Positions 19,747 to 35,170 of a stretch of 64,000 nt of DNA are shown piece after piece. The translations under genes and the position numbers were made by a program. Source of the DNA: Denitromonas ohlonensis (GTDB lineage Bacteria > Pseudomonadota > Gammaproteobacteria > Burkholderiales > Rhodocyclaceae); contig NZ_VMNI01000003.1 in NCBI RefSeq assembly GCF_007625205.1, positions 186,001 to 250,000 on the forward strand, written 5' to 3'. The notes under the pieces are model-generated. The model was not told the DNA's origin and ran no database searches. It was given only the letters and a program-made list of their open reading frames with translations. How positions within the stretch are numbered: position 1 is the first letter of the stretch; the number at the start of each line of letters is the position of its first letter.

Positions 19747-20247
19747 ATGTCGATGCTGACCCGACTGCGCGGCCTGAGCCGCCTGCTGGCCATCACGGCG
19801 GCCCTCGGCCTGCCGACGCTGGCCATCGCCGACGCCAACCCCGGCGAACAACCCATTCACCAGATCGCCCGCACCGGCACCGGCGACGAGGTGACTGCCG
19901 CGCTCAAGGCCGACCCCAAGGCCCGCGACGCGCGCACCGCCCGCGGCTCCACGCCGTTGCACTTGGCCGCCATGAATTCCGACCTCAGCGCCATGCGCGC
20001 CCTGATCGCCGCCGGCGCCGACCCCAACGCCCGCGACCAGGACGGCTCCACCCCGCTGCACATGGCCGCCTACGCCACCCGAACCGACAACGCCCAGCTG
20101 TTGCTCGAAGCCGGCGCCGACCCGGTGGCCAAGAACATCCACGGCCGCGACCCCGCCGCGATGGGCCGCAAGGTCAAGGCCGACGAAACCGTCGGCGTCA
20201 TCTCATTGTGGATTCTCAAAGGCTGCCAGGCCGGCAAGCCGTGCTGA
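19747..20247 (+). CDS. Secreted ankyrin-repeat protein
   Basis: This 166-residue protein has a signal peptide (ending GLPTLAIADA, about residue 30) followed by about three to four ankyrin repeats: the RGSTPLHLAAMNSDLSAMRALIAAGADPNA type, then DGSTPLHMAAYATRTDNAQLLLEAGADP. A good AGGAG site precedes the ATG. Ankyrin repeats mediate protein binding, and the partner is unknown. A DUF411 gene follows 10 bp downstream, so the two are probably co-transcribed periplasmic proteins. Confidence 0.85.
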   Translation: MSMLTRLRGLSRLLAITAALGLPTLAIADANPGEQPIHQIARTGTGDEVTAALKADPKARDARTARGSTPLHLAAMNSDLSAMRALIAAGADPNARDQDGSTPLHMAAYATRTDNAQLLLEAGADPVAKNIHGRDPAAMGRKVKADETVGVISLWILKGCQAGKPC

Positions 20248-20257
20248 AGGAGACGCC

Positions 20258-20761
20258 ATGAAAACCCTGCTCCTTACCGCCCTCACCGCGCTCACGCTGA
20301 GCACCGCCGCAAACGCCGACACCCCCGCCGCCGAGATCGAGATGTACGCCCCGACCGTCTGCCTGGCCTGCATCGATTACGCCGAGCACCTGCGCCAGCA
20401 CGGCTTCAAGGTCACCGTCAATCGCCTGCCCATGGACGACCTCAAGGCCACCAAAGAACGCCTCAAGGTCCCGCGCGGCTACGAAGCCATCCCCTCCGCC
20501 ACGGTCGCCGGCTACTTCATTGAAGGCCACGTGCCCGCCGAAGACATCCAGCTGCTGCTCAAGAAAAAGCCCGACGCCCGCGGCCTCGCCGTGCCCGGCC
20601 TGCCGCTCGGCGCCCCAGGCCGCGAATACTCCAGCCCCACCTGCGAAACCGGCTGCACCACCCTGGACAAGACCCAGGGCACCGAACGCCCCCGGCGCGA
20701 GCCCTTCAATACCTTTTTGATCCTCAAGGACGGGGACAGCAAGGTGTGGTGGCGGCACTGA
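20258..20761 (+). CDS. DUF411-family periplasmic protein
   Basis: This 167-residue protein has a signal peptide (residues 1-20). It matches DUF411 in EMYAPTVCLACIDYAEHLRQHGF (C35 and C38), then ATVAGYFIEGHVPAEDIQLLLKKKPDARGLAVPGLPLGAPG. DUF411 proteins often sit in metal, particularly copper, resistance loci and may bind metal through the N-terminal cysteines. Here the usual CGCC is CLAC. An extra C-terminal part has CETGC. A metal-related role is inferred from the family. Confidence 0.8.
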   Translation: MKTLLLTALTALTLSTAANADTPAAEIEMYAPTVCLACIDYAEHLRQHGFKVTVNRLPMDDLKATKERLKVPRGYEAIPSATVAGYFIEGHVPAEDIQLLLKKKPDARGLAVPGLPLGAPGREYSSPTCETGCTTLDKTQGTERPRREPFNTFLILKDGDSKVWWRH

Positions 20762-21884: not shown

Positions 21885-21913
21885 TGTTCGGCGGCAAGCT
21901 TAGCCGCCGAACA
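21885..21913. terminator. Perfect inverted repeat between convergent genes, possible bidirectional terminator
   Basis: The 11-bp arms TGTTCGGCGGC and GCCGCCGAACA flank the loop AAGCTTA. The structure covers the last codons and stop of the flavoprotein gene on the minus strand and follows the PEBP-like frame on the plus strand by 11 bp. No T-run follows on either side, so termination is only suggested by the stable stem and its position at the 3' end of the long nos operon. Confidence 0.45.
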
Positions 21914-23186
21914 TCTCCCCAAACATTCCCGCCGCCCACGTCATTTCCTCGCCACGCGGCTGGTTCTCGCGCGACTGGTCGATACGTTGCTCCAGCGCGC
22001 CGTCGCCGCGGATGCGGTAGCTGGCGTCGATGCGGACCATTTCCGGGGGGGTGAAGCTGTCGTAGACCCAGCAGGTGCTGTCGGGAAACGGGGGGTCGAA
22101 GGGCTTGCCGTGGATTCGGGCGGCGATGGTGGCAGCGGCGATGCGGCCGTGGTGGACGGCCATGTGGCCGGTTTTGGGGTAGTGGCCGAAGAGCGGGGAG
22201 ACAAGGCCGACGGCGTCGCCGATGACGAAGACGTGCTCGTCGGCGACGGATTGCAGCGTGCGGGCGTCGACGTCGGCCCAGCCGGTGGGCTCGCCGTGGT
22301 CGTTGCGTCGGTCGAGGCCGGCGAGGCGGATCAGCGCGCCGGCGTGTTGCGGACCGGCGAGGATGGCGTCGGAGAAGGGGAATTCATCGAAATCGGTGAC
22401 CACCACTTTCTTGAACGGGTCGACACGCTCGATACGCTGGAAAGGCTTGAAGTCGACATAGTCGGAGAGCTGGCGGTCGAAGCTGTCGCGGAAGCCGGCC
22501 ATGCCGGCGCCGGGGTCGAGCACGATGAGCCGACCCTTGATCTGTTTTTGTTGAAACCAGGTGGCAATGGCGATGGCCCGCTCATAGGGCGTGGGCGGGC
22601 AACGGTAGGGCGCGGGCGGGATGGTCATGAGCAGATCGCCGCCTTTGAAGGCATGCAGCCGCTGCTTGAGCTGCCGGACGCCGGCCGCGCCAACGAAGCC
22701 GCCATCGAACTGCTGGCGAATCGCCGTGAGTGCGTCGCTGTCGCCACCGACCCACGGCGCGAGATTTTCGGCGATGCCGGGCGAGAGCAGAAGCCAGTCG
22801 TAGCTCAGGCGGCCACCGGCGGTTTCAATCTGGCGGGTTTGCCGATCAATGCCGCGCACTTCGGCCTGCACAAAGGTGTAGCCATGACGCGCGGCCGCCT
22901 GGCGGTAGTCGTGCTCGAGCGTGGCGTCGGGCACCCGGTCGATCAGCCAGGCGTTGGACAACGGGAGCGAGAAGAATTGCGCCTGACGCTCGATGAGGAC
23001 GATGTCCCACGCCGGCAATGCGCGGCGCAGATGGGCGGCGGCGGAGAGCCCGCCCCAACCCCCGCCAACGACCACGACACGGCCTTTTTTGGCGGGCGGC
23101 AGCAGGGCCTGCGCGCTGCGCGCCCGACCAAACACCAGGCCGGCGGTCAGGCCGCCCAGCGCATGCAGGGCCTGTCGGCGTTTCAC
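21900..23186 (-). CDS. FAD-dependent oxidoreductase, flavocytochrome c sulfide dehydrogenase (FccB/SoxF)-like
   Basis: This 428-residue protein has a Tat-like signal (KRRQALHALGGLTAGLVFG), an FAD-binding VVVVGGGWGGLSAAAHLRR, and the FCSD hallmarks. These are a cysteine in PPAPYRCPPTPYERA, the second in DSTCWVYDS, VFVIGDAVG, and an FCSD C-terminal flavin-binding domain. The two cysteines would form the redox disulfide that accepts sulfide sulfur. No cytochrome FccA gene adjoins. The GTG start overlaps the TlpA-like gene stop, placing it at the end of the nos operon. The substrate is unproven. Confidence 0.8.
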   Translation of the reverse strand: MKRRQALHALGGLTAGLVFGRARSAQALLPPAKKGRVVVVGGGWGGLSAAAHLRRALPAWDIVLIERQAQFFSLPLSNAWLIDRVPDATLEHDYRQAAARHGYTFVQAEVRGIDRQTRQIETAGGRLSYDWLLLSPGIAENLAPWVGGDSDALTAIRQQFDGGFVGAAGVRQLKQRLHAFKGGDLLMTIPPAPYRCPPTPYERAIAIATWFQQKQIKGRLIVLDPGAGMAGFRDSFDRQLSDYVDFKPFQRIERVDPFKKVVVTDFDEFPFSDAILAGPQHAGALIRLAGLDRRNDHGEPTGWADVDARTLQSVADEHVFVIGDAVGLVSPLFGHYPKTGHMAVHHGRIAAATIAARIHGKPFDPPFPDSTCWVYDSFTPPEMVRIDASYRIRGDGALEQRIDQSRENQPRGEEMTWAAGMFGEMFGG

Positions 23187-23671
23187 AGCAGCGGCGCGAC
23201 GGCGGCCTGCATGTCCTCGGCGCTCATCACGCCGAGCTTGCGGGTGGTGATCTTGCCATCGGCGTCGATGACCACGGTGAAGGGCAGCCCGGCCTTGGTG
23301 TTGCCGAGCGCCTTCATGAGCTCGACGCCCTTGCCGGCGCCGGCGAACACGACGAGATAGTCCATTTCGTAGGCGGCGACGAAGTCGCGGGCGCTGTCGC
23401 CGAGGTCTTCGACCCCGATACCGACCACCTGCAAGCCCGCCGCCTTGTGCTGCTTGGCGAGTTCGGCCAGATGCGGAATCTCGCTGCGGCAGGGGCCGCA
23501 CCAGCGCGCCCAGAAGTTGACCACGGCCGGCTTGCCCTTGAGCGATGCCAGCGCGACCGGCTGGCCATCCAGACCGGGGAAGCCGGCGGCGAACAGCGCC
23601 GTGGCCTCATCGGCAGCGTGTGCCGACAGGCTGGTGACCGCAAAAAACAGCAGGGCAAACAGGTGGCGCAT
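23183..23671 (-). CDS. TlpA/ResA-like periplasmic thioredoxin
   Basis: This 162-residue protein has a Sec signal (MRHLFALLFFAVTSLSAHA), a thioredoxin fold and the catalytic WARWCGPCRSEIPHL motif (CGPC). Such proteins reduce cysteines of apo-cytochromes or copper sites. At the end of the nos genes it could keep NosL, NosZ or the flavoprotein cysteines reduced, which is an inference. It lies 12 bp after nosY and overlaps the flavoprotein start by GTGA. Confidence 0.88.
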   Translation of the reverse strand: MRHLFALLFFAVTSLSAHAADEATALFAAGFPGLDGQPVALASLKGKPAVVNFWARWCGPCRSEIPHLAELAKQHKAAGLQVVGIGVEDLGDSARDFVAAYEMDYLVVFAGAGKGVELMKALGNTKAGLPFTVVIDADGKITTRKLGVMSAEDMQAAVAPLL

Positions 23672-23683
23672 GGCGATTCCTTG

Positions 23684-24511
23684 TTAAGGCAGATCGCTGC
23701 GGCGGAACAGCACGAAGCCGGTCGCGGCAGACAGGGTGCCAAGGAGCACAGGATAAACCACCGCGAAAATCTTGAAGCCGGCGACGCCGAACAGATCGAG
23801 AATCACATAGGCCGAGGGGCCGAAGACGATCAGCTGCGGGTCGAACATCGACAGCGCGGCGGTGCGGAAAACCTGCAGCGGGTTGGCCAGCGCCAGGGTG
23901 ATGGCAAACTCGGGCGCAACACGCGACTGAATCAGCAGGCCGAGCAGAATCAGGTCGAGGAAGAGCAGCATCACCAGCCAGGTGACGAAGGCCAGGCCTT
24001 GCGCGACGTCGGTGCTGCGCGCCAGTGTGGACAAGAGCATGCCGATGCCGAGGAAGCACCAGCCCATGGCGGCGAGGATGGCGGTGTAGTAAAGGAACAT
24101 GCCCCAGGGCACTTCGATTTCCTGGAACATCGCCCACAGCGCGGCACCGGCCATGGCGGCGAACACCGGCAGAAAGATGGAGATATAGCGCCCGACGATC
24201 TTGCCCCAGTACCAGGCCGACAGCGACACGGGCAGCGAGAGGAGGTATTCGAACACACCGGCTTCGCGGTCGCCGGCGACGGAGCGCACGGTGGTGATGA
24301 GCACGAAGATGGGCAGGATCGCCATGGCCAGCTGGATGTAGGTGACCAGCAGGCGCGACAGGCCGATGAAGCCGAGCACCCGCGATTCGGTCAGGCCAAA
24401 GGCAAACAGCAGCGCAACGATGCCGCCGAACACCAACGAGTAGATGAGGAACCAGCGCGAGCGCAGGGATTCGACCAAGTCGAGCTTGGCGGTGAGCCAC
24501 AGGTGTTTCAT
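23684..24511 (-). CDS. nosY: NosY, ABC transporter permease for NosZ copper-site assembly
   Basis: This 275-residue membrane protein has about six helices. The ABC-2 family pattern includes VLITTVRSVAGDREAGVFEYLLSLPVSLSAWYWGKIVGRYI. With NosF and NosD it forms the ABC complex that matures the CuZ (Cu4S) centre of nitrous oxide reductase. It starts directly after the nosL stop. Confidence 0.93.
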   Translation of the reverse strand: MKHLWLTAKLDLVESLRSRWFLIYSLVFGGIVALLFAFGLTESRVLGFIGLSRLLVTYIQLAMAILPIFVLITTVRSVAGDREAGVFEYLLSLPVSLSAWYWGKIVGRYISIFLPVFAAMAGAALWAMFQEIEVPWGMFLYYTAILAAMGWCFLGIGMLLSTLARSTDVAQGLAFVTWLVMLLFLDLILLGLLIQSRVAPEFAITLALANPLQVFRTAALSMFDPQLIVFGPSAYVILDLFGVAGFKIFAVVYPVLLGTLSAATGFVLFRRSDLP

Positions 24512-24958
24512 TTACTTGCCTCGCGCCAGCACGTACTGCTTGGCTTCTTCGTAGGACATGTCGCCCGGATTGGGGATGGTGGTGGCACCGAGGCCGTAGC
24601 CCATCGGCGTGATCTTGCCGCCAAAATAACGGGCCTTGAAGGCGTCAATCCACAAGGTGGTTTTGTAGTCGGTGACCCAGAATTCGATCTGGTCTTCGGG
24701 CCAGCCTTTCTCGCTCATGAAGATGATGGCGTCGCCGAAGTCGTCGAACTTGTGCGGCACTTTCTGGGGGTCGCGGATCTGGGCGGCAAAGCGGCGATCG
24801 GAGAGCACCATGTTGCAACGCTCGCAGGGGTCGCGATCCCATTTGACCTCGACCGGCCCGGTGTTCGGGTCGTCCGGCCCGCAGGCGGTCAGCAGGCTGC
24901 CGGCCAGCGGCACAGCGGCGAGCGCGCCGATCTGGCGGAAAAAGTGGCGTCGGCTCAT
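24512..24958 (-). CDS. nosL: NosL, copper-binding lipoprotein
   Basis: This 148-residue protein has a lipobox LTAC (C26) preceded by a twin-Arg-like MSRRHFFRQ. The metal site is in DRDPCERCNMVLSDRRFAAQI, followed by FDDFGDAIIFM and the NosL TDYKTTLWIDAFKARY region. NosL is an outer-membrane copper chaperone that hands Cu(I) to the NosDFY machinery. It is coupled to nosF by ATGA overlap. Confidence 0.94.
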   Translation of the reverse strand: MSRRHFFRQIGALAAVPLAGSLLTACGPDDPNTGPVEVKWDRDPCERCNMVLSDRRFAAQIRDPQKVPHKFDDFGDAIIFMSEKGWPEDQIEFWVTDYKTTLWIDAFKARYFGGKITPMGYGLGATTIPNPGDMSYEEAKQYVLARGK

Positions 24959-25827
24959 TGCAGGGTGACTCCCGGATCGAGCTCGACCATGTCGATGCCC
25001 TTGAGCAGGCCCACATAGCGCGAGAGCATGCCGAGGAAGCGCAGACGGTCGGGGCCCGCCACCAGCCCGTGCCACTCCATGCCCTCGCCCACGTCGGTGA
25101 AGCTCCACTCGCTCAGGGCCCGGGCAATGGCGTCATCCGCACGATGCAGACGCAGTTTGGTGTTGAGCATGGCGGCGAGATTCGAGTCGTCGGCCACGCG
25201 GTCGTCGAGCACCACCTTACCCATGTCCATTTCGATCACACGATTGACCAACTGCGCCACTTCGTCGAGACGGTGGCTGGAGATGATCATCGAGGTGTTT
25301 TCAATCCGCTCGGCGAGCAGACTGAAGAAAATGTGCCGGGCTTCGGGATCGAGGTTGGCGGCGGGCTCGTCGAGCACCAGCACTTTCACGTCGCGTCCGA
25401 GCGCGATGGCGATCAGCAGCTTTTGCTTCATGCCGCCCGAGAGGCGATTGAAGGGGCGGTTGCGCAGTTCTTCGATATTCAGGCCGAGCCGGGTGCCGAT
25501 GATCTCGATCCGCTTGGGGTCGCTATTGCACACCGCGGCGGCAAACGTGACCAACTGGCCGACCGGCATCTTGAGCGGCGGCGGCAATTGCGGCACGAAG
25601 CCGATCTTGCCGAGCACGCTGGCGCGCTGCTTGCGCGGCGATTCGCCATCGACCAGCACCTCGCCGTCGAAGGTGTACTCACCCAGCAGACAACGGATCA
25701 AGGTGGTCTTGCCGGCACCGTTGGAGCCGATCAGGGCAATACGCTCGCCAGTGGCGATGTCCAGCGTCACGCCGTCGAGGACGGGGTGACGCCGGAACAG
25801 TTTTTTGACGCTATCGAAACGAATCAT
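24955..25827 (-). CDS. nosF: NosF, ABC transporter ATP-binding protein
   Basis: This 290-residue ATPase has Walker A GSNGAGKTT, signature RLSGGMKQKLLIAIALG, Walker B VLVLDEPAANLD and switch His in IISSHRLDEV. It energises the NosDFY complex that builds the CuZ site. The ATG at 25827 (MIRFDSVKKLF) is taken as start; the open frame upstream of it has no family similarity. It is 10 bp from nosH and overlaps nosL. Confidence 0.93.
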   Translation of the reverse strand: MIRFDSVKKLFRRHPVLDGVTLDIATGERIALIGSNGAGKTTLIRCLLGEYTFDGEVLVDGESPRKQRASVLGKIGFVPQLPPPLKMPVGQLVTFAAAVCNSDPKRIEIIGTRLGLNIEELRNRPFNRLSGGMKQKLLIAIALGRDVKVLVLDEPAANLDPEARHIFFSLLAERIENTSMIISSHRLDEVAQLVNRVIEMDMGKVVLDDRVADDSNLAAMLNTKLRLHRADDAIARALSEWSFTDVGEGMEWHGLVAGPDRLRFLGMLSRYVGLLKGIDMVELDPGVTLQ

Positions 25828-25837
25828 CCGGGGTCGC

Positions 25838-26806
25838 TTAAAGCAGCTTGTTAAGCCCCTTGACCTCGAACTTGAGGGCACCGCTGGGGCAGGTATCCAC
25901 GCACAGACCGCAGCGGGTGCAGTCGGGTCCGATCGGGACTTTGACGTCCGGCGAGCGGCCCTTGATGACAACTTCGAGCACGTGGGGCACGAGGCACACT
26001 TTGCGGCAGTCGCCCTCGTGGAAGCAATGATTTAGGTCATACACCACGCGCACAGGCGAGATCACGCCGACTGCGCCGTAGGTCAGCCCGATGGGGCAGA
26101 CATACCGGCACCAGGCGCGACGAGAATATACCACCTCGAACACCAGCAGCAGCGCGACCCAGCCCAGCGCCAGGCTGGGGCCATAAATGAGTGCGCGACT
26201 GAGGATACCGGTCGGCGACAGGGTTTCGAAAACGGTGAAGCCGGTGACGATCGCCAGCAGCGAGAACAGCACCCACATCACGGTGCGGGCACCGCGATGG
26301 AACTCATGGTCGGTGACGAGCTTCTTGGCCACCAGCTTGAGGTGCAGCTTTTCGAACAGTTCGGCCACCAGGTGATAGGGACACACCCAGGAACAGAAAC
26401 TGCGCCCGCCCAGTGCCGCCCACAGCAGGAACACCGTGGCCGTGCCAATGAACAGGTTCACGATGATGTGCTTGTGCGCCAGCATCACCTGCAAGGCCGA
26501 GTTCAGATCGATGAGGTGAAAGCCGACAAAGCGCGAGGCGGTGAGCGCACCTTCGAGGATCTGGATGTCGAGCCAGAACGAGAAGGTGAACAGGATGTTC
26601 ACCAGAATCAGCACTGTCCAGCGACGGTTGCGCCAAGTGTTCTTTTCGAGGGCATGGTCGCGCACATGCTGCTTCATGGCCTCGAAGTCATCCTTGGTCA
26701 GGCGCTTCATTTTGTGAATTTTCTGGGCTTCCGGCGTGATTTCCACCGGTTTTTTCGGCGCCTGGCCCAGCATGAGCATGATCTGCTCTAGAAATCGGCC
26801 TTTCAT
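25838..26806 (-). CDS. nosH: NosH, membrane-bound NapH-type ferredoxin
   Basis: This 322-residue protein has four to five membrane helices, poly-cysteine motifs of the NapH/NosR family (CSWVCPYHLV, CRYVCPIGLTYG), and a C-terminal 4Fe-4S ferredoxin site (CTRCGLCVDTCPSG). In clade II nos clusters NosG and NosH are proposed to pass quinol electrons toward NosZ, replacing NosR, of which no gene is present here. The start overlaps the nosG stop as ATGA. Confidence 0.87.
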   Translation of the reverse strand: MKGRFLEQIMLMLGQAPKKPVEITPEAQKIHKMKRLTKDDFEAMKQHVRDHALEKNTWRNRRWTVLILVNILFTFSFWLDIQILEGALTASRFVGFHLIDLNSALQVMLAHKHIIVNLFIGTATVFLLWAALGGRSFCSWVCPYHLVAELFEKLHLKLVAKKLVTDHEFHRGARTVMWVLFSLLAIVTGFTVFETLSPTGILSRALIYGPSLALGWVALLLVFEVVYSRRAWCRYVCPIGLTYGAVGVISPVRVVYDLNHCFHEGDCRKVCLVPHVLEVVIKGRSPDVKVPIGPDCTRCGLCVDTCPSGALKFEVKGLNKLL

Positions 26807-27711
26807 GCTTCGCCCTCCCACACTGCCCGCGAATCAACCACGATGGCGGTCGGCTCCACGGGGCAGATCATTTCACACACGCCACAGCCCACGCATTGCT
26901 CCATCACCACCGGGATGCCGCGCTTGCTGCCGTCGGCGGCTTCGGTCACTTCCAGGCGAATGGCGTCCTGAATCGGGCACTCGGTGACACACAGGTCGCA
27001 CAGATCGCGCTCATAGGGGTGGTCGGCCACCGGAATGGGCGCCCAGCGATCCACGTCCATGTAGCGCATCTGCCCGGTGAAGTCGGCGCCACGCGCCGGC
27101 CCCTTGAAGCCCTTGCCCTGCGTCGCCAGACAGGCCTCGGGACGCGACAGACGCGCAAGACCGGCACGCTCGATCAGGTTGAGCGTGGGCTCGGGGTCGT
27201 TGGCCTTGGCCTTGAGTACCGGCTTATGCGCCAGTTCTGCGCCGGGGCGGATCTTCAGGAAATCGGGCTTGCGATAGACCAGCGAACCGGTCGGACAGGC
27301 CAGAATGCACTGCACCGCATCGCAGGAGAAATCACAGGCCTGCTTGCGCGAGTCGATATGCGGCACGCCCAGGCCAAAGCCATCGGTGATGTCACCGAGC
27401 ACGATCGCTTCGACCGGACACACCTGAACGCACTGACCGCACTTGATACAGGACGACAGAAAATCGTTTTCGTCCAGCGCACCGGGTGGGCGCAGGCGGG
27501 GATTGTCGGCCTGCGCGGCCACTGGCAGATAGCCGGCCAGCCCCGCGCCGACCACACCAGTGCTCATCACCGCGGTGCGAATGAATCGCCGTCGCGCCTC
27601 GAGCGCCCGGGCGTTCGAGCGCGGTGCAGCGCCGCCCTTTTTGGCACGGGGTGCGGCCGCAGCGTCAGACTCGGCCGGCACGGCCGGACCGGATTCGGTC
27701 TCCTGGCTCAT
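26803..27711 (-). CDS. nosG: NosG, NapG-type periplasmic iron-sulfur protein
   Basis: This 302-residue protein has a low-complexity N-terminus, a twin-arginine region (ARRRFIRTAVMSTGVVGAGLAGY) and four ferredoxin-type clusters, including CIKCGQCVQVCPVEA, CDAVQCILACPTG, CDLCVTECPIQDA and CVGCGVCEMICPVEP. It is a NapG paralogue expected to work with NosH. The ATG at 27711 is preferred, overlapping the nosD stop; upstream in-frame sequence is unrelated to the family. Confidence 0.87.
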   Translation of the reverse strand: MSQETESGPAVPAESDAAAAPRAKKGGAAPRSNARALEARRRFIRTAVMSTGVVGAGLAGYLPVAAQADNPRLRPPGALDENDFLSSCIKCGQCVQVCPVEAIVLGDITDGFGLGVPHIDSRKQACDFSCDAVQCILACPTGSLVYRKPDFLKIRPGAELAHKPVLKAKANDPEPTLNLIERAGLARLSRPEACLATQGKGFKGPARGADFTGQMRYMDVDRWAPIPVADHPYERDLCDLCVTECPIQDAIRLEVTEAADGSKRGIPVVMEQCVGCGVCEMICPVEPTAIVVDSRAVWEGEA

Positions 27712-29165
27712 GATCTTGCCTCTTTGGGGTTGTAGAACAGCGGTGCGTCGTCCTTGAGCAACAGCACAGGGCTGGTGAAGGGCGCGAGCCGTTCCAGAAA
27801 ATCGAGCGCCTCGAGCATGGGCGCATTCTTGAAAAAGCGGGCGTAGGGCTGCTCCATCCACAGCTGATCGGTGAAGGCGTACAGCTCGTAAGGCGTATCG
27901 CCCACACGATCGGTATTGCGGTCAAAGCCTTGGTAATCGTCCCAGTAGTTGCCGTGCCACTTGCTCTTGGTGGCGGCGCCGGCACCGCCGACGGCGATCT
28001 GCGACAGATTGCCTTCGAAGACGTTGCCGCTCACCTCGGTACCGCCGATGTCGGAGGTGAACTGAATGCCGATGCCGTTGTAGGCGATACGGTTGCCGCG
28101 GATGGTTACGGTGCTGTCGGGCTCAAAGGGCGAGATGTCACTGCCGATACCGACTGCGCAGTAGATGATCTCGTTGCCTTCGATAATCACATCCGAGGCT
28201 TCCTTCATGCCGACCGCCATGCCGGTGGCGCCATTGGCCTGCGAAATGACGTTGTTGCGGATGGTCGAGTAGCCGGCATACATGACGTATACGCCCACCG
28301 AGTTTTCGTAGTACTTGTTGCCCTCCACCAGATTGCGGTTGGCGAACATGAAGTGCAGCGAGTAGCGGGAGCGTCGGCCGAGGTTGTTGCGGAAGATGTT
28401 GTCGTTCGAGTACCAGGCCACCACGTCACGTGAATCGACAACCTCGTTGCCCTCCACCAGATTGTGATGGCTCGACCACAGCCGGATACCGTCGCCTCGC
28501 AGACCCAGCTCAGCGGGCTTGGAGCTGATGTAGCTATTGCGCAGGGTGTTGTGGTTCGCTTGCTTGAGATCGACCCCAAACAGGCAATCATCCATCCGGA
28601 TCGATTCGAACAGGCCGTGCTGGCCGCGCACATTCAGACAGGCGTCGTCCGAGTCGTGCGACCCGCCAGAGCCGGTCAGGTGCAGCCCTCGCAAGGTCAC
28701 GCCCGCCGCCTGCACGACCATCACGGTACCGCTGCCGCCACCATGAATCACGACCTTGCCATCGCCTTCGATGGTGAGCGTCTTGTCGACCAGCACCGGG
28801 CCGGCGTAGTCGCCGGGCGGCACCTTGAGCACACTGCCGACCGGCGCCGCATCCACCAGGGTCTGGAACCAGGGCATGTCGGTGCGATTGGGCGCGGTCG
28901 GCTTGGGCGCCGGCCGGCTGGAATCGCCCCAGGAGTCGGCAGCCGATTCGCTCGGCGCCTCTTTTTCCATGCCGGCGCCAGGAAACGCCACCCGGGGATC
29001 AAACGGCTCGGCCGGCCCCGCCTTGGGCGCCTCTCCGGCCGCCTTCAGGCCCGAGGCCTTGAGTTTGTCGAGAATCGAATCGACATCGGCCAGGGCGATG
29101 GTTTGCGGGAACAGCGAACCAGCGAGCACCGCGACAACCGGCAAAAGCCGCGCCAGGGTTTTCAC
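27708..29165 (-). CDS. nosD: NosD, periplasmic beta-helix protein for NosZ maturation
   Basis: This 485-residue protein has a signal peptide (MKTLARLLPVVAVLAGSLFPQTIALA) and a linker rich in Pro and Ala. A right-handed parallel beta-helix made of PbH1 repeats follows (for example NLVEGNKYYENSVGVYVMY, IIEGNEIIYCAVGIG). NosD receives copper and sulfur and inserts them into NosZ together with NosFY. The GTG start overlaps the nosB stop. Confidence 0.94.
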   Translation of the reverse strand: MKTLARLLPVVAVLAGSLFPQTIALADVDSILDKLKASGLKAAGEAPKAGPAEPFDPRVAFPGAGMEKEAPSESAADSWGDSSRPAPKPTAPNRTDMPWFQTLVDAAPVGSVLKVPPGDYAGPVLVDKTLTIEGDGKVVIHGGGSGTVMVVQAAGVTLRGLHLTGSGGSHDSDDACLNVRGQHGLFESIRMDDCLFGVDLKQANHNTLRNSYISSKPAELGLRGDGIRLWSSHHNLVEGNEVVDSRDVVAWYSNDNIFRNNLGRRSRYSLHFMFANRNLVEGNKYYENSVGVYVMYAGYSTIRNNVISQANGATGMAVGMKEASDVIIEGNEIIYCAVGIGSDISPFEPDSTVTIRGNRIAYNGIGIQFTSDIGGTEVSGNVFEGNLSQIAVGGAGAATKSKWHGNYWDDYQGFDRNTDRVGDTPYELYAFTDQLWMEQPYARFFKNAPMLEALDFLERLAPFTSPVLLLKDDAPLFYNPKEARS

Positions 29166-30172
29166 TCGGCCGTCCCCTCTCGCATCTGCTTGCGACGCAG
29201 CAGCGTGGCCAGCAACAGGCACAGGCTCATGATCACCACCAGCAGATAGCCCCAGTAGGGATAGGAATAGGTAGAGAACTGCGCCACCTTACCCACGCCG
29301 AACACCGTCGGCATGAAGGGTTTGACGGTAAATGCGCCCCACGGGTGCAGGTTGTGGCCGAAGAACCACAGCCAGCCCGCGTAGTCGATGACGAAGAAGA
29401 TCGGCAGGAGCGCAGGCACAAAGGCCAGCAGCAAGGAAAAGCCACGGATCTTCCAGACACCGACCCACACCACGGCCATCGCCGCCATCAGGCCCACCGC
29501 CACGCCAGTGGTCACACTCTTGAGCATGCTGCCCCACTCGGCAATGCGCTCGGGTTCATTGAAGAACGCACCGGCCTCGCCCATGTAGTACTCGGCGTAG
29601 GACTGCAGCTTGCCCATCACGAACAGCTCGCCGACCATCCAGGCGGCGACCGCGGCGAAACCGATGGCCATCACGGTCAGGCGCGCCTTGCGTTTGGCCA
29701 TCGCGAAGCCGAGCAGCATCACCCCGAAGAAACCGAAGATGTAGCGCGACACCTGCCGCTCGACGGGCGCGCCGATGCCGATCGGGTGCATGCCGACGTA
29801 GTGGTTGATGGTGTTCATCTCGTGCACGCAGTCGAGGGCCTCGGCGTTCTTATTGACGTCGGTCTTCTGCTTTTTCTGGGCTTCGAGAATCGGGTTGTAG
29901 CGCTCTTTCTGGGAGCCGAGGTCTTCCTGGAAGGTCTCGGTCATCAGACGGCTGGTTTTCGGTGCCGTGCTGCAGCCGTTCTCCACGCCGGTAAAGCTGA
30001 AGTGGATGCGGATACCATCGGGAAAGGCGTCTTCCGGGTAGTTGGGCGCGGTCAGCGCGACCCACCAGGTCGGCGAAAAATAGGCGCCGATCATCAGCAC
30101 CAGAGCGATCAGGGTCAATCCGCGCACGATCAGCGATTGCTTGCTCGCAGCGGCAGTGTTTTGGGGTTGCAT
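29162..30172 (-). CDS. nosB: NosB-like polytopic membrane protein of clade II nos clusters
   Basis: This 336-residue protein has about six membrane helices: one near residues 14-40, a roughly 100-residue loop with two cysteines (ENGCSTAPK, ALDCVHEMN), then five helices ending near residue 326. Clade II (Wolinella/Dechloromonas-type) clusters carry such a membrane protein, usually called NosB, whose function is unknown. Naming here rests on gene order and topology. It is 185 bp from the upstream cytochrome gene and overlaps nosD. Confidence 0.7.
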   Translation of the reverse strand: MQPQNTAAASKQSLIVRGLTLIALVLMIGAYFSPTWWVALTAPNYPEDAFPDGIRIHFSFTGVENGCSTAPKTSRLMTETFQEDLGSQKERYNPILEAQKKQKTDVNKNAEALDCVHEMNTINHYVGMHPIGIGAPVERQVSRYIFGFFGVMLLGFAMAKRKARLTVMAIGFAAVAAWMVGELFVMGKLQSYAEYYMGEAGAFFNEPERIAEWGSMLKSVTTGVAVGLMAAMAVVWVGVWKIRGFSLLLAFVPALLPIFFVIDYAGWLWFFGHNLHPWGAFTVKPFMPTVFGVGKVAQFSTYSYPYWGYLLVVIMSLCLLLATLLRRKQMREGTAE

Positions 30173-30315
30173 ACGTTCACCGTGTCGTTGGAAGTCCCGT
30201 CGCGGTGTGGTGCCAGCACCATGGACACAGTGCGCCCGATCGGGACGGGGTCCGTCCGGGCGCTTTCGGCGCCAATGATTATTGTTGTCGCGCGATCATT
30301 CATGTCGCGCTGAAC

Positions 30316-30348
30316 CCCGACACCGCGACCACCGGTCGCGATGTCGGG
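30316..30348 (-). terminator. Strong hairpin just after the diheme cytochrome gene
   Basis: The arms CCCGACACCGCGACC and GGTCGCGATGTCGGG pair at 14 of 15 positions around a 3-base loop, beginning about 10 bases after the cytochrome stop on the minus strand. No T-run follows, so it may be an mRNA-stabilising or partial attenuation structure that lowers expression of the nosBDGHFLY genes relative to the cytochrome. Confidence 0.5.
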
Positions 30349-30357
30349 AATGTAGCA

Positions 30358-31071
30358 TTACTTACACATGCTGCCCGGCATCTTCAGGCTGGACTGGTAA
30401 GCCGAAATCGCCACCAGATCCTTGTCCGAATACTTGGAGATGATTTTCACCATGTCCGGGTTGGCATTGCGGCGGTGACCGTCGCGAATTTCGGTCATCT
30501 GACGCAGCAGGTAGGCATAGTGCTGACCGGCGATCACCGGGTAGAACTTGTCCTTCACGCCCTCGCCGTTTTCGCCATGGCATTCCTGGCACTCTTTCTT
30601 GTACAGGGTGCGGCCCTTGGCGATCTGCAGCATCTTGTCGGCTTCGTCGTACTTGCCATGATCGACCGGCACGCACAGGCTTTCAATGTAGGCGGAGACG
30701 TCGGCCAGGTCCTGCGCGTCGGTCATGGTTGCGGCAAACGGATACATGGTCGGGTTGTCACGCAGGCCGGCGCGGATGTCGGCCATCTGCTTGATCAGCA
30801 CGGTCGAGTGCTGACCGGCCAGCTGCGGGAAGGTGCCGTCCGGACGGCCCGCGCCCGAGGGCAGGTGGCAGGCGCCACAGATCTCGTAGACTTCCTTGCC
30901 TTTTTTGACGTCGCCTTTCAGCGTCAGGGCTTCGTTCTTTTCGCCGCCCTCGGCGTTCCAGACATAGCCCTCGCCTTCGATACCGGTTTTCTTCGGTGCG
31001 GGGCCGCCGGCCGCCTGCACTGCGCCGACGGCAAATACGGCCAGCGACGCTGCAATCAAAAACTGTTTCAT
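30358..31071 (-). CDS. Diheme cytochrome c of the nos cluster
   Basis: This 237-residue periplasmic cytochrome has a signal peptide (MKQFLIAASLAVFAVGAVQA) and two haem sites, CGACHLPSG and CQECHGENG. Axial-Met and MxxI segments occur in each half. It is the first gene after a perfect TTGAT-N4-ATCAA box and probably carries electrons to NosZ. The ATG at 31071 is used because GGAGGG lies 9 bases upstream; an ATG 9 bases earlier would abut that site. In clade II clusters two c-type cytochromes commonly accompany nosZ. Confidence 0.88.
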   Translation of the reverse strand: MKQFLIAASLAVFAVGAVQAAGGPAPKKTGIEGEGYVWNAEGGEKNEALTLKGDVKKGKEVYEICGACHLPSGAGRPDGTFPQLAGQHSTVLIKQMADIRAGLRDNPTMYPFAATMTDAQDLADVSAYIESLCVPVDHGKYDEADKMLQIAKGRTLYKKECQECHGENGEGVKDKFYPVIAGQHYAYLLRQMTEIRDGHRRNANPDMVKIISKYSDKDLVAISAYQSSLKMPGSMCK

Positions 31072-31106
31072 GACTCTCATCCCTCCGAGGAGAATTAGTA
31101 ATCGCT

Positions 31107-31148
31107 AAAGTACGCGAACATTCGCAAGCGTACGTTGATACCCATCAA
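31107..31148 (-). promoter_or_regulatory. FNR/DNR-type class II promoter for the diheme cytochrome-nosBDGHFLY genes
   Basis: A perfect TTGAT-N4-ATCAA palindrome lies at 31135-31148. On the minus strand exactly 22 bases separate it from TACTTT (31112-31107). This matches class II FNR geometry, with the site centred at about -41.5 and the -10 element 22 bases on, giving a predicted transcription start near 31100. The site starts 64 bases upstream of the chosen ATG. Confidence 0.75.
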
Positions 31149-31233
31149 AAACTGCCCGCATGCGCCTGAAAGACAGACACCGTGGATCGGCCCGAAGGCC
31201 AATGCACGGTGCGGCACGAACAGCCGGAATCGC

Positions 31234-31545
31234 TCAGGGTGCCATTTTCGAGATGTAGTCGGCGAGCACCTTGATCTGTGCATCATCGACCAGGTGCATC
31301 ACACCCTTCATCGCAGCCGTCTGGCCGTTGTTGCGCTTGCCGCTCTTGATGTCGGCCATCTGCGCTTCAAGATAAGCGGCATTCTGACCAGCGATCTTCG
31401 GGTAGTTCGGCATCAGGGTTTTCTTGCCGTCGGCGCCATGACAGGCGGCGCAGGTCTTTGATGCGTAAAGCGCGGCGCCATCTTCGGCCAGCGCCGGCGT
31501 AGCCATCAGGCCGATCAATGCGGCGAATACTACTGCTTTCTTCAT
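31234..31545 (-). CDS. Monoheme cytochrome c, nos cluster
   Basis: This 103-residue protein has a signal peptide (MKKAVVFAALIGLMATPALA), one CAACHGADG haem site and an axial methionine probably in KGVMHLV, as in small class I (c5/c553-like) cytochromes. It sits between nosZ and the diheme cytochrome on the same strand, 80 bp after nosZ. It probably donates electrons to the CuA centre of NosZ. Transcription would need to pass the terminator-like hairpin after nosZ. Confidence 0.88.
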   Translation of the reverse strand: MKKAVVFAALIGLMATPALAEDGAALYASKTCAACHGADGKKTLMPNYPKIAGQNAAYLEAQMADIKSGKRNNGQTAAMKGVMHLVDDAQIKVLADYISKMAP

Positions 31546-31565
31546 GGGTATTCCCTCTCGTAAAT

Positions 31566-31600
31566 GAAAAACCGGGGAGCAATAAATATCACTCCCCGGT
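31566..31600 (-). terminator. Rho-independent terminator/attenuator after nosZ
   Basis: Reading the minus strand, arms ACCGGGGAG and CTCCCCGGT flank a 12-base AT-rich loop and are followed by a run of T residues, a textbook intrinsic terminator. It lies about 30 bp after the nosZ stop and before the monoheme cytochrome gene. It would give abundant nosZ message with limited read-through into the cytochrome. Confidence 0.82.
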
Positions 31601-31627
31601 CGGTACCGCTTTGGTTCAGGTCAAGAA

Positions 31628-33925
31628 TTACTCAACCTTCTTGGCGCCATTTTGCTCAAGGTAGGTCTTGGCACGCAGACCGAGGTCGGCGGCTTTCACC
31701 TGGTACTGCCACACCTGCTCGGCCCAGAGGTTAGCCTGGTCCCAGTCAGCGCCGCGAGCGGCATCTTCGTGCTTGGCCTTGGCTTCCTTGGTGCGGTTGA
31801 GCTGATCGACAGCGTCTTCCATCATGGCAACCACGTCCGGGAAGTCGGTGTAGTTAACACTGGTGATGTAGCCCACAACCTGGTCGATGACGACCTGGGT
31901 GTCTGCCACTTTCTTCAGCGTCTTCTTGTAGTCCTCTTCCGTATAGCCAGCACCCGCCAGCGAGGCGTCCTTCTCCGGCTTCCAGCCCTTCGGCTTGACC
32001 AGGAGATAGCCCTGCATTTCGAGGTGCAGCGCCGAGCAGAACTCGGTGCAGTAGTACGGATACACACCTTCCTTGTCGGCGGTGAACTTGACGGTGACCG
32101 TCTTGCCCGGCTCAACCGACGCATGCACGTTGAAGGTCGAGACGGTGAAGCCGTGGGTCTCGTCCTGCGCACGCTCGAGGTTGGTCAGGTGAACCGTGAC
32201 TTCGTCACCCTTCTCGACTTCGATGGTTTCCGGCGTGATGTGCGAGCGGATCAGCGTACCGAACACTTCGACCTTGTTGCCATTGCGGACGGTCTTTTCC
32301 TGACCGGCACGGACGGCACCCGGGTGCGGCTTGTCGGTGCGGCTATCGGTGCCGACCTTGTAGCGCACAGCAGGCTTCAGCTTGTCGGCCTTGATGGCGA
32401 CCACATAGTGCGGCTCACCCAGCGGCAGCGGCATGTCGTACAGCAACTGCATCTTGTCGTTGCTGATGTCGATGAGCTGGTGGTTCTGCGGATGCAGCGG
32501 GCCCACCGGGTTGAAGCGGTCGATCGACAGCTTGTTGAGGGCCACCAGATACTTGCCCTGCGGCGCCATCGTGTCGCCTTCCATGGTCATCAGGTGACCG
32601 ATGTTGTAGTGCACGCTGATCTTGTCGAGCACCTTGCCTTCGCAGTAGTTCCACTTGGCAACTTGCGAGTCCACATACAGCGAGGTGTAGGCTACGCAGT
32701 TCTTGGCGTCGTACTGGGTGTGCAGGGGGCCAAGGCCGAGTTCGACCTGGGTGTGCAGCGCATCCTTCATGGCGATCACGGGGATGCCGTACGGATCTTT
32801 CGATTCGAACTTGCCGGCCTTGATGGCGGCCATGATGTTCTCGAAGCTGTACACCGACACGTGCGTGTCGAGCTTGCCGGAGACGGTGATGAACTTGCCG
32901 TCAGGCGTCACGTCGACACCGTGCGGGGACTTGGGCTCGGGCACCAGGAAGAGCACGCCTTCCTTGACTGCCACTTCGATCGGCAGCACGTCGTGGCCGT
33001 TGATCTTGGTGGCTTTGCCGGCCTTGACCAGCTCGGCCGCCTTCTTCCAGTTGACCACGTGCATGTAGTCGGTGTCCTTGGCGGAACAACCGGCTTCATA
33101 CGGCGGACGACCCTTCTCGATACCACCGACATAACGCTCGGAGCAGAAAGAGTTGGTGAAGGACCAGCCCTCGGACGGGCCTTTACCCGCGTCGGACAAA
33201 TCCTGCGAATACGGCGGCAGCTCGAGCGAGAAGGACTCGTTCGGGACCAGACGGCCTTCGTGACGATCGAACTTCCAGTAGGTCACGCCACCACGATACT
33301 TGCTGTTGAACGAGGTCAGCGGCTCGAACTTCTGGTTGGCCAGCGGCGAGGCGTACTGCGCGGCTTCAATCACGTACTCGGTGTTCGGGGTAACGAAGGC
33401 GCCACCGTGCTCGGACTTGAAGATCGGGTTGACCACGATCTGCTTGGTTTCGAAGTCACGCAGGTCGATCACGGCGAGGCGCGGGTTGGCCTTGTCGTTG
33501 ATGAACAGGAACTGACCGTCGTACTGACCTTGCGTCTCGGAAATGGCCGGGTGGTGCGTATCGCCCCAGTTGATTTCCTTGCCGTCGATGTTGCCCTGAC
33601 GCAGCACGGCCTTCGAGTTCTCGTCGAAGCCATAGCCCTGCCACGGTTCCGGCGTAAACACGGCGATGTACTTGAGGATGCGCATGGACGGAATGCCATA
33701 CACAATGATCTGGCCAGACTGACCGCCCGAGCTGAACGCGAGGAATTCGTCGCGCTTGCCGGTCGGCACATAGGTTTTGGCCGCAGCCATAAGGTCTTGC
33801 TGGGACAGCCCACGGCGCTTCATGACGTCCTGCAGCGACTCGGCGGCAAATGCCGACGAGGTTGCTGCCAGACCGAAGCCAGCCGCAAGCGCCAGTCCAA
33901 CCGCCTGCTTGATACGGGTTTTCAT
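31628..33925 (-). CDS. nosZ: Nitrous oxide reductase, clade II (Sec-exported) NosZ
   Basis: This 765-residue periplasmic enzyme reduces N2O to N2. The signal peptide (MKTRIKQAVGLALAAGFGLAATSSAFA) lacks a twin-arginine motif, the mark of clade II NosZ. CuZ ligands include the His pair in GDTHHPAISETQ and histidines along the propeller (SEHGGAF, HGVDVTPDG). The C-terminal cupredoxin domain has the CuA motif CTEFCSALHLEM. No C-terminal haem domain is fused. The start follows GGGAGAG. An FNR-type box lies 116 bases upstream. Confidence 0.97.
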   Translation of the reverse strand: MKTRIKQAVGLALAAGFGLAATSSAFAAESLQDVMKRRGLSQQDLMAAAKTYVPTGKRDEFLAFSSGGQSGQIIVYGIPSMRILKYIAVFTPEPWQGYGFDENSKAVLRQGNIDGKEINWGDTHHPAISETQGQYDGQFLFINDKANPRLAVIDLRDFETKQIVVNPIFKSEHGGAFVTPNTEYVIEAAQYASPLANQKFEPLTSFNSKYRGGVTYWKFDRHEGRLVPNESFSLELPPYSQDLSDAGKGPSEGWSFTNSFCSERYVGGIEKGRPPYEAGCSAKDTDYMHVVNWKKAAELVKAGKATKINGHDVLPIEVAVKEGVLFLVPEPKSPHGVDVTPDGKFITVSGKLDTHVSVYSFENIMAAIKAGKFESKDPYGIPVIAMKDALHTQVELGLGPLHTQYDAKNCVAYTSLYVDSQVAKWNYCEGKVLDKISVHYNIGHLMTMEGDTMAPQGKYLVALNKLSIDRFNPVGPLHPQNHQLIDISNDKMQLLYDMPLPLGEPHYVVAIKADKLKPAVRYKVGTDSRTDKPHPGAVRAGQEKTVRNGNKVEVFGTLIRSHITPETIEVEKGDEVTVHLTNLERAQDETHGFTVSTFNVHASVEPGKTVTVKFTADKEGVYPYYCTEFCSALHLEMQGYLLVKPKGWKPEKDASLAGAGYTEEDYKKTLKKVADTQVVIDQVVGYITSVNYTDFPDVVAMMEDAVDQLNRTKEAKAKHEDAARGADWDQANLWAEQVWQYQVKAADLGLRAKTYLEQNGAKKVE

Positions 33926-34040
33926 ATTGTTCTCTCCCTGAACAGAAAGCTCGGATAAGGGCACAAACACGCCAATCGTCGCAAAAAAGTACACTGCGAT
34001 AATTTGCCGCACATGGTGCGCGCATCAGGTTTCCCTAACG

Positions 34041-34143: not shown

Positions 34144-34650
34144 ATGACCGAATCCTTGCGCTCCCTGACACCCAAACTGACCGCCCTCGGCGGTGTACTG
34201 GCCGCACTGGCAGCCGCCCTCTATGGCTGGCAAGTGTGGACGGCACCGCCCACCGAGGTGTTATTGCCGCGCTCAAGCTGCGACCTCAATGCCGGCGCAT
34301 GCGCACAAACGCTGCCCACCGGTGCGACGGTGCGCTTCGCCATCGGGCCGCAGCCGATCCCGGTCATGGAAGATCTCGATCTGAAGGCCGACTTCACCGG
34401 CAAGACGCCTGACCGCGTGGCCGTCGATCTGAACGGCACCACCATGAAAATGGCGGCCAATCAGCCGCAGCTGCAGCCCGTTGGCAACAACCGCTTTGAA
34501 GGCAAGACCGCGCTGTCGGTGTGCATTACCGGTGCCATGCAATGGCAGGCCGTACTGCAGGTCGACTACGGACGCACCCGTTATCTGCTGCCCTTTGTCT
34601 TCGACTCGGCGCACAGCGACGACACCGAGCTCGCCAAGCCGCTAAAATAG
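34144..34650 (+). CDS. Membrane-anchored periplasmic protein of unknown function
   Basis: This 168-residue protein has one N-terminal hydrophobic segment (TALGGVLAALAAALYGWQVW, about residues 13-32). An extracytoplasmic domain follows, containing SSCDLNAGACAQTLPTG and a late CITGAMQW segment. The three cysteines may form a disulfide plus a free thiol. I recognise no family. It is divergent from nosZ across the FNR box and 46 bp upstream of the PCuAC copper chaperone, so a role in copper delivery to NosZ or oxidases is a reasonable inference. Confidence 0.7.
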   Translation: MTESLRSLTPKLTALGGVLAALAAALYGWQVWTAPPTEVLLPRSSCDLNAGACAQTLPTGATVRFAIGPQPIPVMEDLDLKADFTGKTPDRVAVDLNGTTMKMAANQPQLQPVGNNRFEGKTALSVCITGAMQWQAVLQVDYGRTRYLLPFVFDSAHSDDTELAKPLK

Positions 34651-34696: not shown

Positions 34697-35170
34697 ATGC
34701 GTTGCACCCCACTCCACCTCGCCACCGCACTGCTGGCCCTTGGCCTGCCCGCCCTTGCCCCGGCTGCCGGCATGGCCGATAGCGTGGCGATCGAAGACGC
34801 GCATGTCCGCCAGATGCCGCCGGCCGCGCCCAACACCGCCGCGTTTCTGACCGTCATCAACACCGCCGCCACACCGATCCGCCTGACCGGTGCGCGCAGC
34901 GAGGTGGCCAACACCGTGGAACTGCACGATCACATCCAGGATGGCGACATCCTGCGCATGCGCCGTATCGACGGCGTCGACATCCCCGCCGGCAGCCGTG
35001 CCGCGCTAGCGCCGGGCGGCAAACATGTGATGCTGATCGGCCTGAAGCAAGCCCTCAAGGCCGGCACCCAGGTGCAGCTCACCCTGCAATTCGCCGATGG
35101 CAGCGAGTATCCCCTCAGCGCCCCGGTCACCCCGATCCGCCCCGCCGCCATGCCCGGCATGAAGCACTGA
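34697..35170 (+). CDS. PCuAC-family periplasmic copper chaperone
   Basis: This 157-residue protein has a signal peptide (MRCTPLHLATALLALGLPALAPAAG). The cupredoxin-like domain carries the Cu(I) pattern: VELHDHIQDGDILRMRRID, then PGGKHVMLIGL. Family members load CuA of cytochrome oxidase, often with SCO. A late MPGMKH tail adds further His/Met ligands. Its position next to the nos cluster suggests it may also serve NosZ. Confidence 0.92.
   Translation: MRCTPLHLATALLALGLPALAPAAGMADSVAIEDAHVRQMPPAAPNTAAFLTVINTAATPIRLTGARSEVANTVELHDHIQDGDILRMRRIDGVDIPAGSRAALAPGGKHVMLIGLKQALKAGTQVQLTLQFADGSEYPLSAPVTPIRPAAMPGMKH

Follow-up and report, generated by a model that had tools for sequence, protein, structure and literature searches.

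In the bacterium Denitromonas ohlonensis, a cluster of clade II nos genes for the reduction of nitrous oxide (N2O) runs directly into a gene for a flavoprotein related to the flavin subunit of flavocytochrome c sulfide dehydrogenase (FCSD). We analyzed this gene and its surroundings in a window of 64,000 nucleotides (contig NZ_VMNI01000003.1, positions 186,001 to 250,000 of the forward strand), to which all coordinates below refer. The flavoprotein turned out to be linked with clade II nos genes well beyond chance and to have two constant partners, D411L, a variant of the CopG/DUF411 family, and ANK, an ankyrin-repeat protein. The initial annotation had taken a TlpA-like thioredoxin, encoded next to the flavoprotein, for its partner; the constant partners are instead encoded at 19747–20761, outside the segment considered there. 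On the strength of gene structure, conserved cysteines, co-inheritance and, in our samples, restriction to clade II nos genomes, we tentatively favor a reading, which we would rate as slightly short of probable, in which the trio forms an optional periplasmic sulfide/thiol–copper redox unit serving or guarding the clade II N2O reductase, NosZ. The three genes are the following:

21900–23186, minus strand: FCSD-like flavoprotein with a twin arginine and redox cysteines C196 and C372 (PF21706; FCSD structures)
20258–20761, plus strand: D411L, CopG/DUF411 variant with a CLAC motif and a CExxC loop, convergent with the flavoprotein gene (PF04214; 6wis/6wje; own clade)
19747–20247, plus strand: ANK, ankyrin-repeat protein with a signal-like N-terminus and a C-terminal cysteine pair (Pfam Ank; alignment; distribution)

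Of the other protein clusters at 45 loci around relatives (none longer than 21 kb), a DUF411 protein was the most frequent, with 26 loci; its gene faces that of the flavoprotein wherever it was mapped. The next clusters were a generic ABC-ATPase (18 loci) and an ankyrin protein (14 loci). In a family sample of 150 genomes, D411L was defined by a score of at least 140 bits (members start at 143 bits, and the next match stands at 95.4) and is present in 32. The test for ANK covered 47 chosen genomes of this sample. It is encoded in all 32 genomes with D411L, also where the genes are unlinked (the match is partial in the fragmented genome G077), versus none of the 15 others. For the flavoprotein group we used a threshold of at least 369 bits, leaving out G103 for want of D411L, and the tree agrees with this delimitation. 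By score plus partner, the group occurs in 31 of the 32 D411L genomes and, as grouped, in no genome without D411L; by the tree, 29 of the 32 have it.

In that tree, from which the distant row L002 was left out, the clade of flavoproteins with D411L and ANK partners is supported at 97/98. Three candidates near the score border, those of G103, G139 and G035, were rejected as members of the group, as the tree places them in the sister clade. Flavoproteins of this sister clade (L067, L068, L069, L074, L075) are often encoded beside genes that resemble, by eye, selA, selB, fdhE and those for formate dehydrogenase subunits. Carriage by plasmids found no support: our plasmid set contains no D411L at 1e-25 and includes one Paracoccus flavoprotein at 36.5%.

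The distribution of D411L follows that of clade II nos genes. A search for NosZ detected the clade II enzyme in 41 of the 150 genomes and, by this search alone, in 27 of the 32 with D411L compared with 14 of the 118 others. The five apparent cases of a trio without nos proved to carry clade II accessory clusters in which nosZ is cut or missing, according to a contig-level check that covered these five only and not the genomes counted as lacking clade II nos genes. Pieces of nosZ stand at contig ends beside accessory genes in three of them (G001, G008, G066), the cluster is cut at a contig end before nosZ in G090, and G114 has nosDGHFLY-tlpA with nosZ not seen. All 32 D411L genomes carry clade II nos genes, nosZ itself being unseen in two. 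D411L is absent from all 44 genomes of the family sample with clade I NosZ, and G060, which belongs to the same genus as the window and has a clade I NosZ, lacks D411L, ANK and the flavoprotein group. Fisher tests of the association gave 5e-22 over genomes and 5e-10 by genus, with all 16 D411L genera among the 24 clade II nos genera out of 68; the sampled genomes are related, so these values overstate the evidence.

The same restriction was seen in an order sample of 349 genomes, 25 of which have clade II NosZ. The thresholds here were at least 218 bits for D411L (next match 136) and at least 596 bits for the flavoprotein (next match 566). D411L is present in 11 genomes, all with clade II NosZ, and in none of the 324 genomes without it, and by score the flavoprotein group occurs in the same 11, G020 included. 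The family sample had already included seven of the 11; the additions are G476 and, from another family, three genomes in which D411L, flavoprotein and ANK are neighbors again, in a different arrangement. Low-scoring full-length matches to D411L in the order sample (one in G412 and a second one in G147) were set aside as canonical CGCC/SCHT proteins. Explaining the D411L label on a NosZ tree of 41 rows, kept from 45 listed loci, takes 9 changes (shuffled mean 13.6). Well-supported branches force at least 7 gains or losses of D411L, a number to which transfer of nosZ could add.

The flavoprotein begins with VKRRQALHALGG, which includes a twin arginine, and an RR pair is found near the N-terminus in 33 of 35 aligned rows (the alignment left out L067–L069, of the sister clade, and L125, the same gene as L052, from the 38 listed). 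It contains the FCSD central domain (PF21706, 67.9 bits versus a cut-off of 27, 1.1e-18), matches the FCSD flavin subunits 5n1t, 1fcd and 3vrd at 1.3e-40 to 1.1e-34, and aligns with them at both redox cysteines, within RCPPTPYER and STCW. These cysteines, C196 and C372, are invariant in all 35 rows. Domain match and structure alignment thus bear out the original assignment as an FCSD-type protein with both redox cysteines. With FccB/SoxF proteins (1fcd, 3vrd, 5n1t) it shares the PF21706 domain, the FAD-binding region, the cysteine pair and the twin-arginine N-terminus. It differs from them in having no adjoining fccA, in forming its own clade with D411L and ANK partners, and in having leucine (FFSL) in place of the cysteine of the YYTC motif in 1fcd, which we take to be the site of covalent FAD attachment in A. 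vinosum FCSD; 5 of the 35 rows have cysteine at this position. The closely related flavoprotein of Denitromonas halophila SFB-3 is 94% identical to that of the window.

D411L has the DUF411 domain (PF04214, 68.9 bits versus a cut-off of 27; 6wis at E 2.8e-28 over profile positions 28–126) in common with CopG, and its 37 rows form a clade of their own, supported at 100/100, apart from 19 canonical rows. It departs from CopG in its cysteines. The CxCC motif is replaced by CxxC (CLAC in the window; A or S as its third residue in all 35 rows), and the SCHT-type cysteine is gone, CHT occurring in none of the 37 D411L rows versus all 19 canonical ones. All 37 have instead a late CxxxC, absent from the 19 canonical sequences. 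The cysteines of D411L are invariant in 35 of 35 rows. A passage of PMC7558416 describes CopG-like proteins as having a copper-binding thioredoxin-like domain and reports that CopG has a tetranuclear copper cluster, bound by CxCC. ANK ends in a GC...C motif whose two cysteines are likewise invariant across all 35 rows, of which two are identical. All three proteins of the trio look exported, judging by their N-termini, and all have invariant cysteine pairs.

The rest of the nos cluster and the genes divergent from it comprise:

31628–33934, minus strand: nosZ, clade II (Sec-dependent) N2O reductase (TIGR04246, 926.6 bits, cut-off 625)
31234–31545, minus strand: c-type cytochrome C1 (cytochrome c model matches under cut-offs; counterpart in most fetched nos loci)
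30358–31080, minus strand: c4-like diheme cytochrome C2 (Pfam cytochrome c in two stretches)
29162–30172, minus strand: nosB-like gene (position and conservation in nos loci; no Pfam match)
27708–29222, minus strand: nosD (TIGR04247 above cut-off)
26803–27708, minus strand: nosG, NapG-like ferredoxin protein (NCBIfam matches under cut-off)
25838–26806, minus strand: nosH, NapH-like (TIGR02163 above cut-off)
24955–25893, minus strand: nosF, ABC ATPase (PF00005)
24512–25057, minus strand: nosL with the clade II CXXCXM motif, CERCNM (PF05573, 20.2 bits, under the cut-off of 24; motif)
23684–24511, minus strand: nosY, ABC-2 permease (PF12679)
23183–23671, minus strand: tlpA, CGPC thioredoxin with a signal-like N-terminus (PF08534; TlpA/ResA matches under NCBIfam cut-offs)
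34144–34650, plus strand: protein divergent from nosZ (homologs beside nosZ in L227, L233 and L234; no Pfam match)
34697–35170, plus strand: PCu(A)C copper chaperone, divergent from nosZ (PF04314)

Farther along, at 35180–37084, a CHAP domain is fused with an ATP-grasp domain of the glutathionylspermidine-synthase type.

Clade II nos clusters are composed as a rule of nosZ, cytochromes, nosB, D, G, H, F, Y and L, and the window has the same gene content. It differs in that TlpA is the usual end gene in this family and that the trio is joined to the cluster, as here, only in some lineages. The junctions are as the initial annotation had described them: 12 bp separate the stop of nosY (23684) from the start of tlpA (23671), and a GTGA at 23186–23183 is common to the TGA stop of tlpA and the GTG start of the flavoprotein gene. 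A promoter and terminator scan (22 terminator-like sites in the region versus 12 in shuffles) marked nothing at either junction of the nosY–tlpA–flavoprotein row, terminator-like sites included. A weak terminator-like site lies beyond the flavoprotein gene (21832–21814), and a 14-pair hairpin stands directly after nosZ, before cytochrome C1 (31601–31570). The nosY–tlpA–flavoprotein order also occurs in five further assemblies, L033–L036 (flavoprotein 82–94% identical) and L037 (51%), and is therefore no chance juxtaposition or assembly artefact. The search for this order in relatives, proposed when the cluster was first described, has a divided outcome. By the refuting criterion set then, absence from nearly all relatives, the position is rare, having been seen only in Denitromonas-type genomes and L037, though the co-occurrence of the genes is strong.

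Trio genes adjoin the 3' end of nos in these genomes. In other genomes the contact takes other forms: ANK, D411L and flavoprotein genes lie upstream of nosZ in G028, ANK and D411L lie beyond the nos 3' end in G117, and a second ANK gene is near a second nosZ in G112. This amounts to linkage in 4 of 16 sampled genera, or 1e-4 against random placement, a figure that assumes a rough 1.7% chance per genome and does not allow for several genomes per genus. In G112, a small c-type cytochrome gene (CANCH) and then an FCSD gene of canonical appearance come after the second nosZ, on its strand (L279:4331-9229; G112:C1:3305000-3324999), and the ANK gene faces this row. Such an arrangement, a separate union of nosZ with a sulfide dehydrogenase gene, fits a link of sulfide oxidation to N2O reduction.

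We next consider which cytochrome the flavoprotein of the window might use. The initial annotation had noted the lack of a cytochrome partner, which holds for fccA as such: the neighbors of the flavoprotein gene are tlpA and, on the opposite strand, a gene with a PBP domain, and the only cytochromes in the cluster are C1 and C2 of nos. The claim does not extend to C2, a c4-like protein with a distant relation to the FCSD heme subunit (3vrd_A at E 1.3e-7, 1fcd_C at 6.6e-6). The genome also has a separate canonical-looking FCSD gene (contig C24, L282:5303-7788), which carries the covalent-FAD cysteine motif VSCPMSN and is preceded by a c-type cytochrome gene and two genes resembling soxYZ by eye.

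TlpA had been presented as an unusual extension of nos together with the flavoprotein, and this part of the description must be revised: TlpA is an ordinary, usual member of the clade II nos clusters of the family. The window protein has CGPC and matches PF08534 with 86.2 bits (cut-off 26.6); the cut-off of the TlpA equivalog NF047696 was not reached (76.4 bits versus 230). Of the 41 family genomes in which clade II NosZ was detected, 29 encode their best TlpA relative on the same strand 7.4–13.7 kb downstream of nosZ. As for the remaining 12, nosZ and TlpA are on different contigs in 11 and far apart in one (G147). Some genomes with no detected clade II NosZ (for example G003, G087, G103 and G043) have TlpA relatives of similar score too, and TlpA is therefore not exclusive to nos. 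A conserved TlpA–flavoprotein unit was ruled out, TlpA tracking nos and the flavoprotein tracking D411L and ANK; the exceptions to this separation are G114, where TlpA adjoins the flavoprotein, and G088, where it adjoins D411L. Shortly beyond tlpA, four relatives have a second NosD-like gene, 42–45% identical (L227:5279-6403, L274:4504-5628, L276:10267-11391, L280:3970-5106).

As to function, a passage of PMC7558416 states that TlpA of Bradyrhizobium acts as reductant of the cysteines that bind copper in oxidase subunit II, and one of PMC6530538 gives CXXCXM as the clade II NosL motif. NosL of the window and all 12 others examined in the fetched loci have this motif, and a thiol reductant is therefore to be expected in the cluster. 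TlpA, probably exported in view of its N-terminus, would serve the cluster as its general thiol reductant and maintain the CXXCXM of NosL and the CuA cysteines of NosZ in reduced form for copper loading. Like the Bradyrhizobium protein, it is a CGPC thioredoxin of the TlpA/ResA type; it differs in scoring under the NCBIfam cut-offs, in being encoded in a nos cluster and in its presumed substrates, NosL and the CuA site of NosZ.

How might the trio work? Enzymes of the FCSD type take electrons from sulfide and deliver them, by way of a cysteine pair and FAD, to a c-type cytochrome. This route, the kinship of C2, the disabling of NosZ by sulfide and the copper domain of CopG together led us to the sulfide/thiol–copper redox unit. 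Its export, substrates, electron route, partner contacts and physiological effect we infer as follows. The flavoprotein would oxidize sulfide, persulfide or a dithiol of a partner on its C196/C372 pair and FAD, and hand the electrons to the c-type cytochromes that feed NosZ, C1 and C2, of which C2 is a possible acceptor. D411L and ANK may carry copper or sulfane sulfur. The net effect would be that sulfide is prevented from stripping copper from NosZ, that the Cu–S centers are kept working and that electrons are recovered for N2O reduction. Protection was added to this reading because a passage of PMC11782648 reports that sulfide disables NosZ by copper chelation at micromolar levels and that sulfide oxidation rescues it.

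Besides the relatedness of the sampled genomes, several observations weigh against this reading. Trio genes lie away from nos in most genomes. D411L is missing from 14 of the 46 clade II nos genomes of the family sample, and NosZ therefore evidently works without it; in the order sample it is missing from 14 of the 25 genomes with clade II NosZ. A sulfide guard should help clade I NosZ too, yet clade I genomes lack D411L. As D411L has neither the canonical CxCC nor the SCHT cysteine, its copper binding is not assured. Scores alone give no clean cut for the flavoprotein group, G103 (370.7 bits, clade I NosZ, no D411L) standing above G106 (369.6), and the flavoproteins of G020 and G081, both with D411L, fall in the sister clade. 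Finally, a cd1 gene (PF02239) is present in 31 of the 32 D411L genomes versus 8 of the 14 clade II nos genomes without D411L, which leaves the NirS link not separated from the NosZ link.

Among the alternatives, one would assign the trio to sulfur supply for, or assembly of, the CuZ center. The flavoprotein would use its cysteine pair to form a persulfide; D411L and ANK would bring sulfane sulfur or copper to apo-NosZ, beside NosDFY and NosL. The confinement of D411L to genomes with clade II nos genes and its four repositioned cysteines would suit such a role, as would the pairing of a sulfide-type flavoprotein with a relative of CopG and its reported tetranuclear copper cluster (in the cited passage of PMC7558416). 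NosDFY are given, in a passage of PMC6530538, as likely, not proven, suppliers of sulfide for CuZ. Since D411L is missing from 14 of the 46 clade II nos genomes of the family sample and from all 44 clade I genomes, which build CuZ as well, and since it has been repeatedly gained or lost and has given up the CxCC motif, we regard this explanation as unlikely.

Another explanation that we find improbable removes NosZ from the picture: the trio would be a general periplasmic unit against copper/sulfide or nitrosative stress in complete denitrifiers of the NirS type, with no direct contact to NosZ and an ecological link to nos. The cd1 counts given above agree with it, as do G008, G065 and G106, in which trio genes and cd1 genes are about 12 kb or less apart, and the lack of linkage between trio and nos in most genomes. 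However, when only NirS-positive genomes are compared, the flavoprotein group occurs in 26 of 35 with NosZ-II versus 4 of 60 without, those 4 carry clade II nos accessory clusters, and none of the 38 NirS-positive clade I genomes has the group.

It is very doubtful that the flavoprotein is simply a sulfide dehydrogenase of the SoxF/FccB type that uses C1 and C2 to add sulfide as a donor for N2O respiration: its family and redox cysteines, the distant relation of C2 to the FCSD heme subunit and the nosZ–cytochrome–FCSD row of G112 agree with lithotrophic electron input, but this leaves D411L and ANK unexplained, only 5 of the 35 flavoproteins in the alignment retain the covalent-FAD cysteine, and the separate FCSD gene behind a c-type cytochrome in the same genome may already cover sulfide oxidation.

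The sulfide/thiol–copper unit that we favor also has a more far-reaching version, to which we assign a low probability. The trio would then be a dedicated periplasmic copper–sulfur pathway of clade II N2O respiration, in which the flavoprotein would either produce sulfane sulfur or clear away sulfide. D411L, with its two remodeled pairs of cysteines, would carry copper or a Cu–S unit, ANK would dock them, and the building or repair of CuZ would thereby follow a route that is not known in clade I.

Our literature searches, mainly of the best-ranked papers, found no description of the flavoprotein–D411L–ANK trio, and one may exist elsewhere. NosZ is the biological sink for N2O, and to our knowledge little is known about how the clade II enzyme acquires and keeps its Cu–S centers. 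Both sulfide and copper shortage are reported to disable NosZ (in passages of PMC11782648 and PMC6530538). A sulfide-type flavoprotein, a CopG variant and a cysteine-tailed ankyrin protein, found in our samples only with clade II nos genes, provide named candidate genes. The trio may be an unrecognized helper module of clade II N2O reduction, and it would predict which N2O reducers tolerate sulfide.

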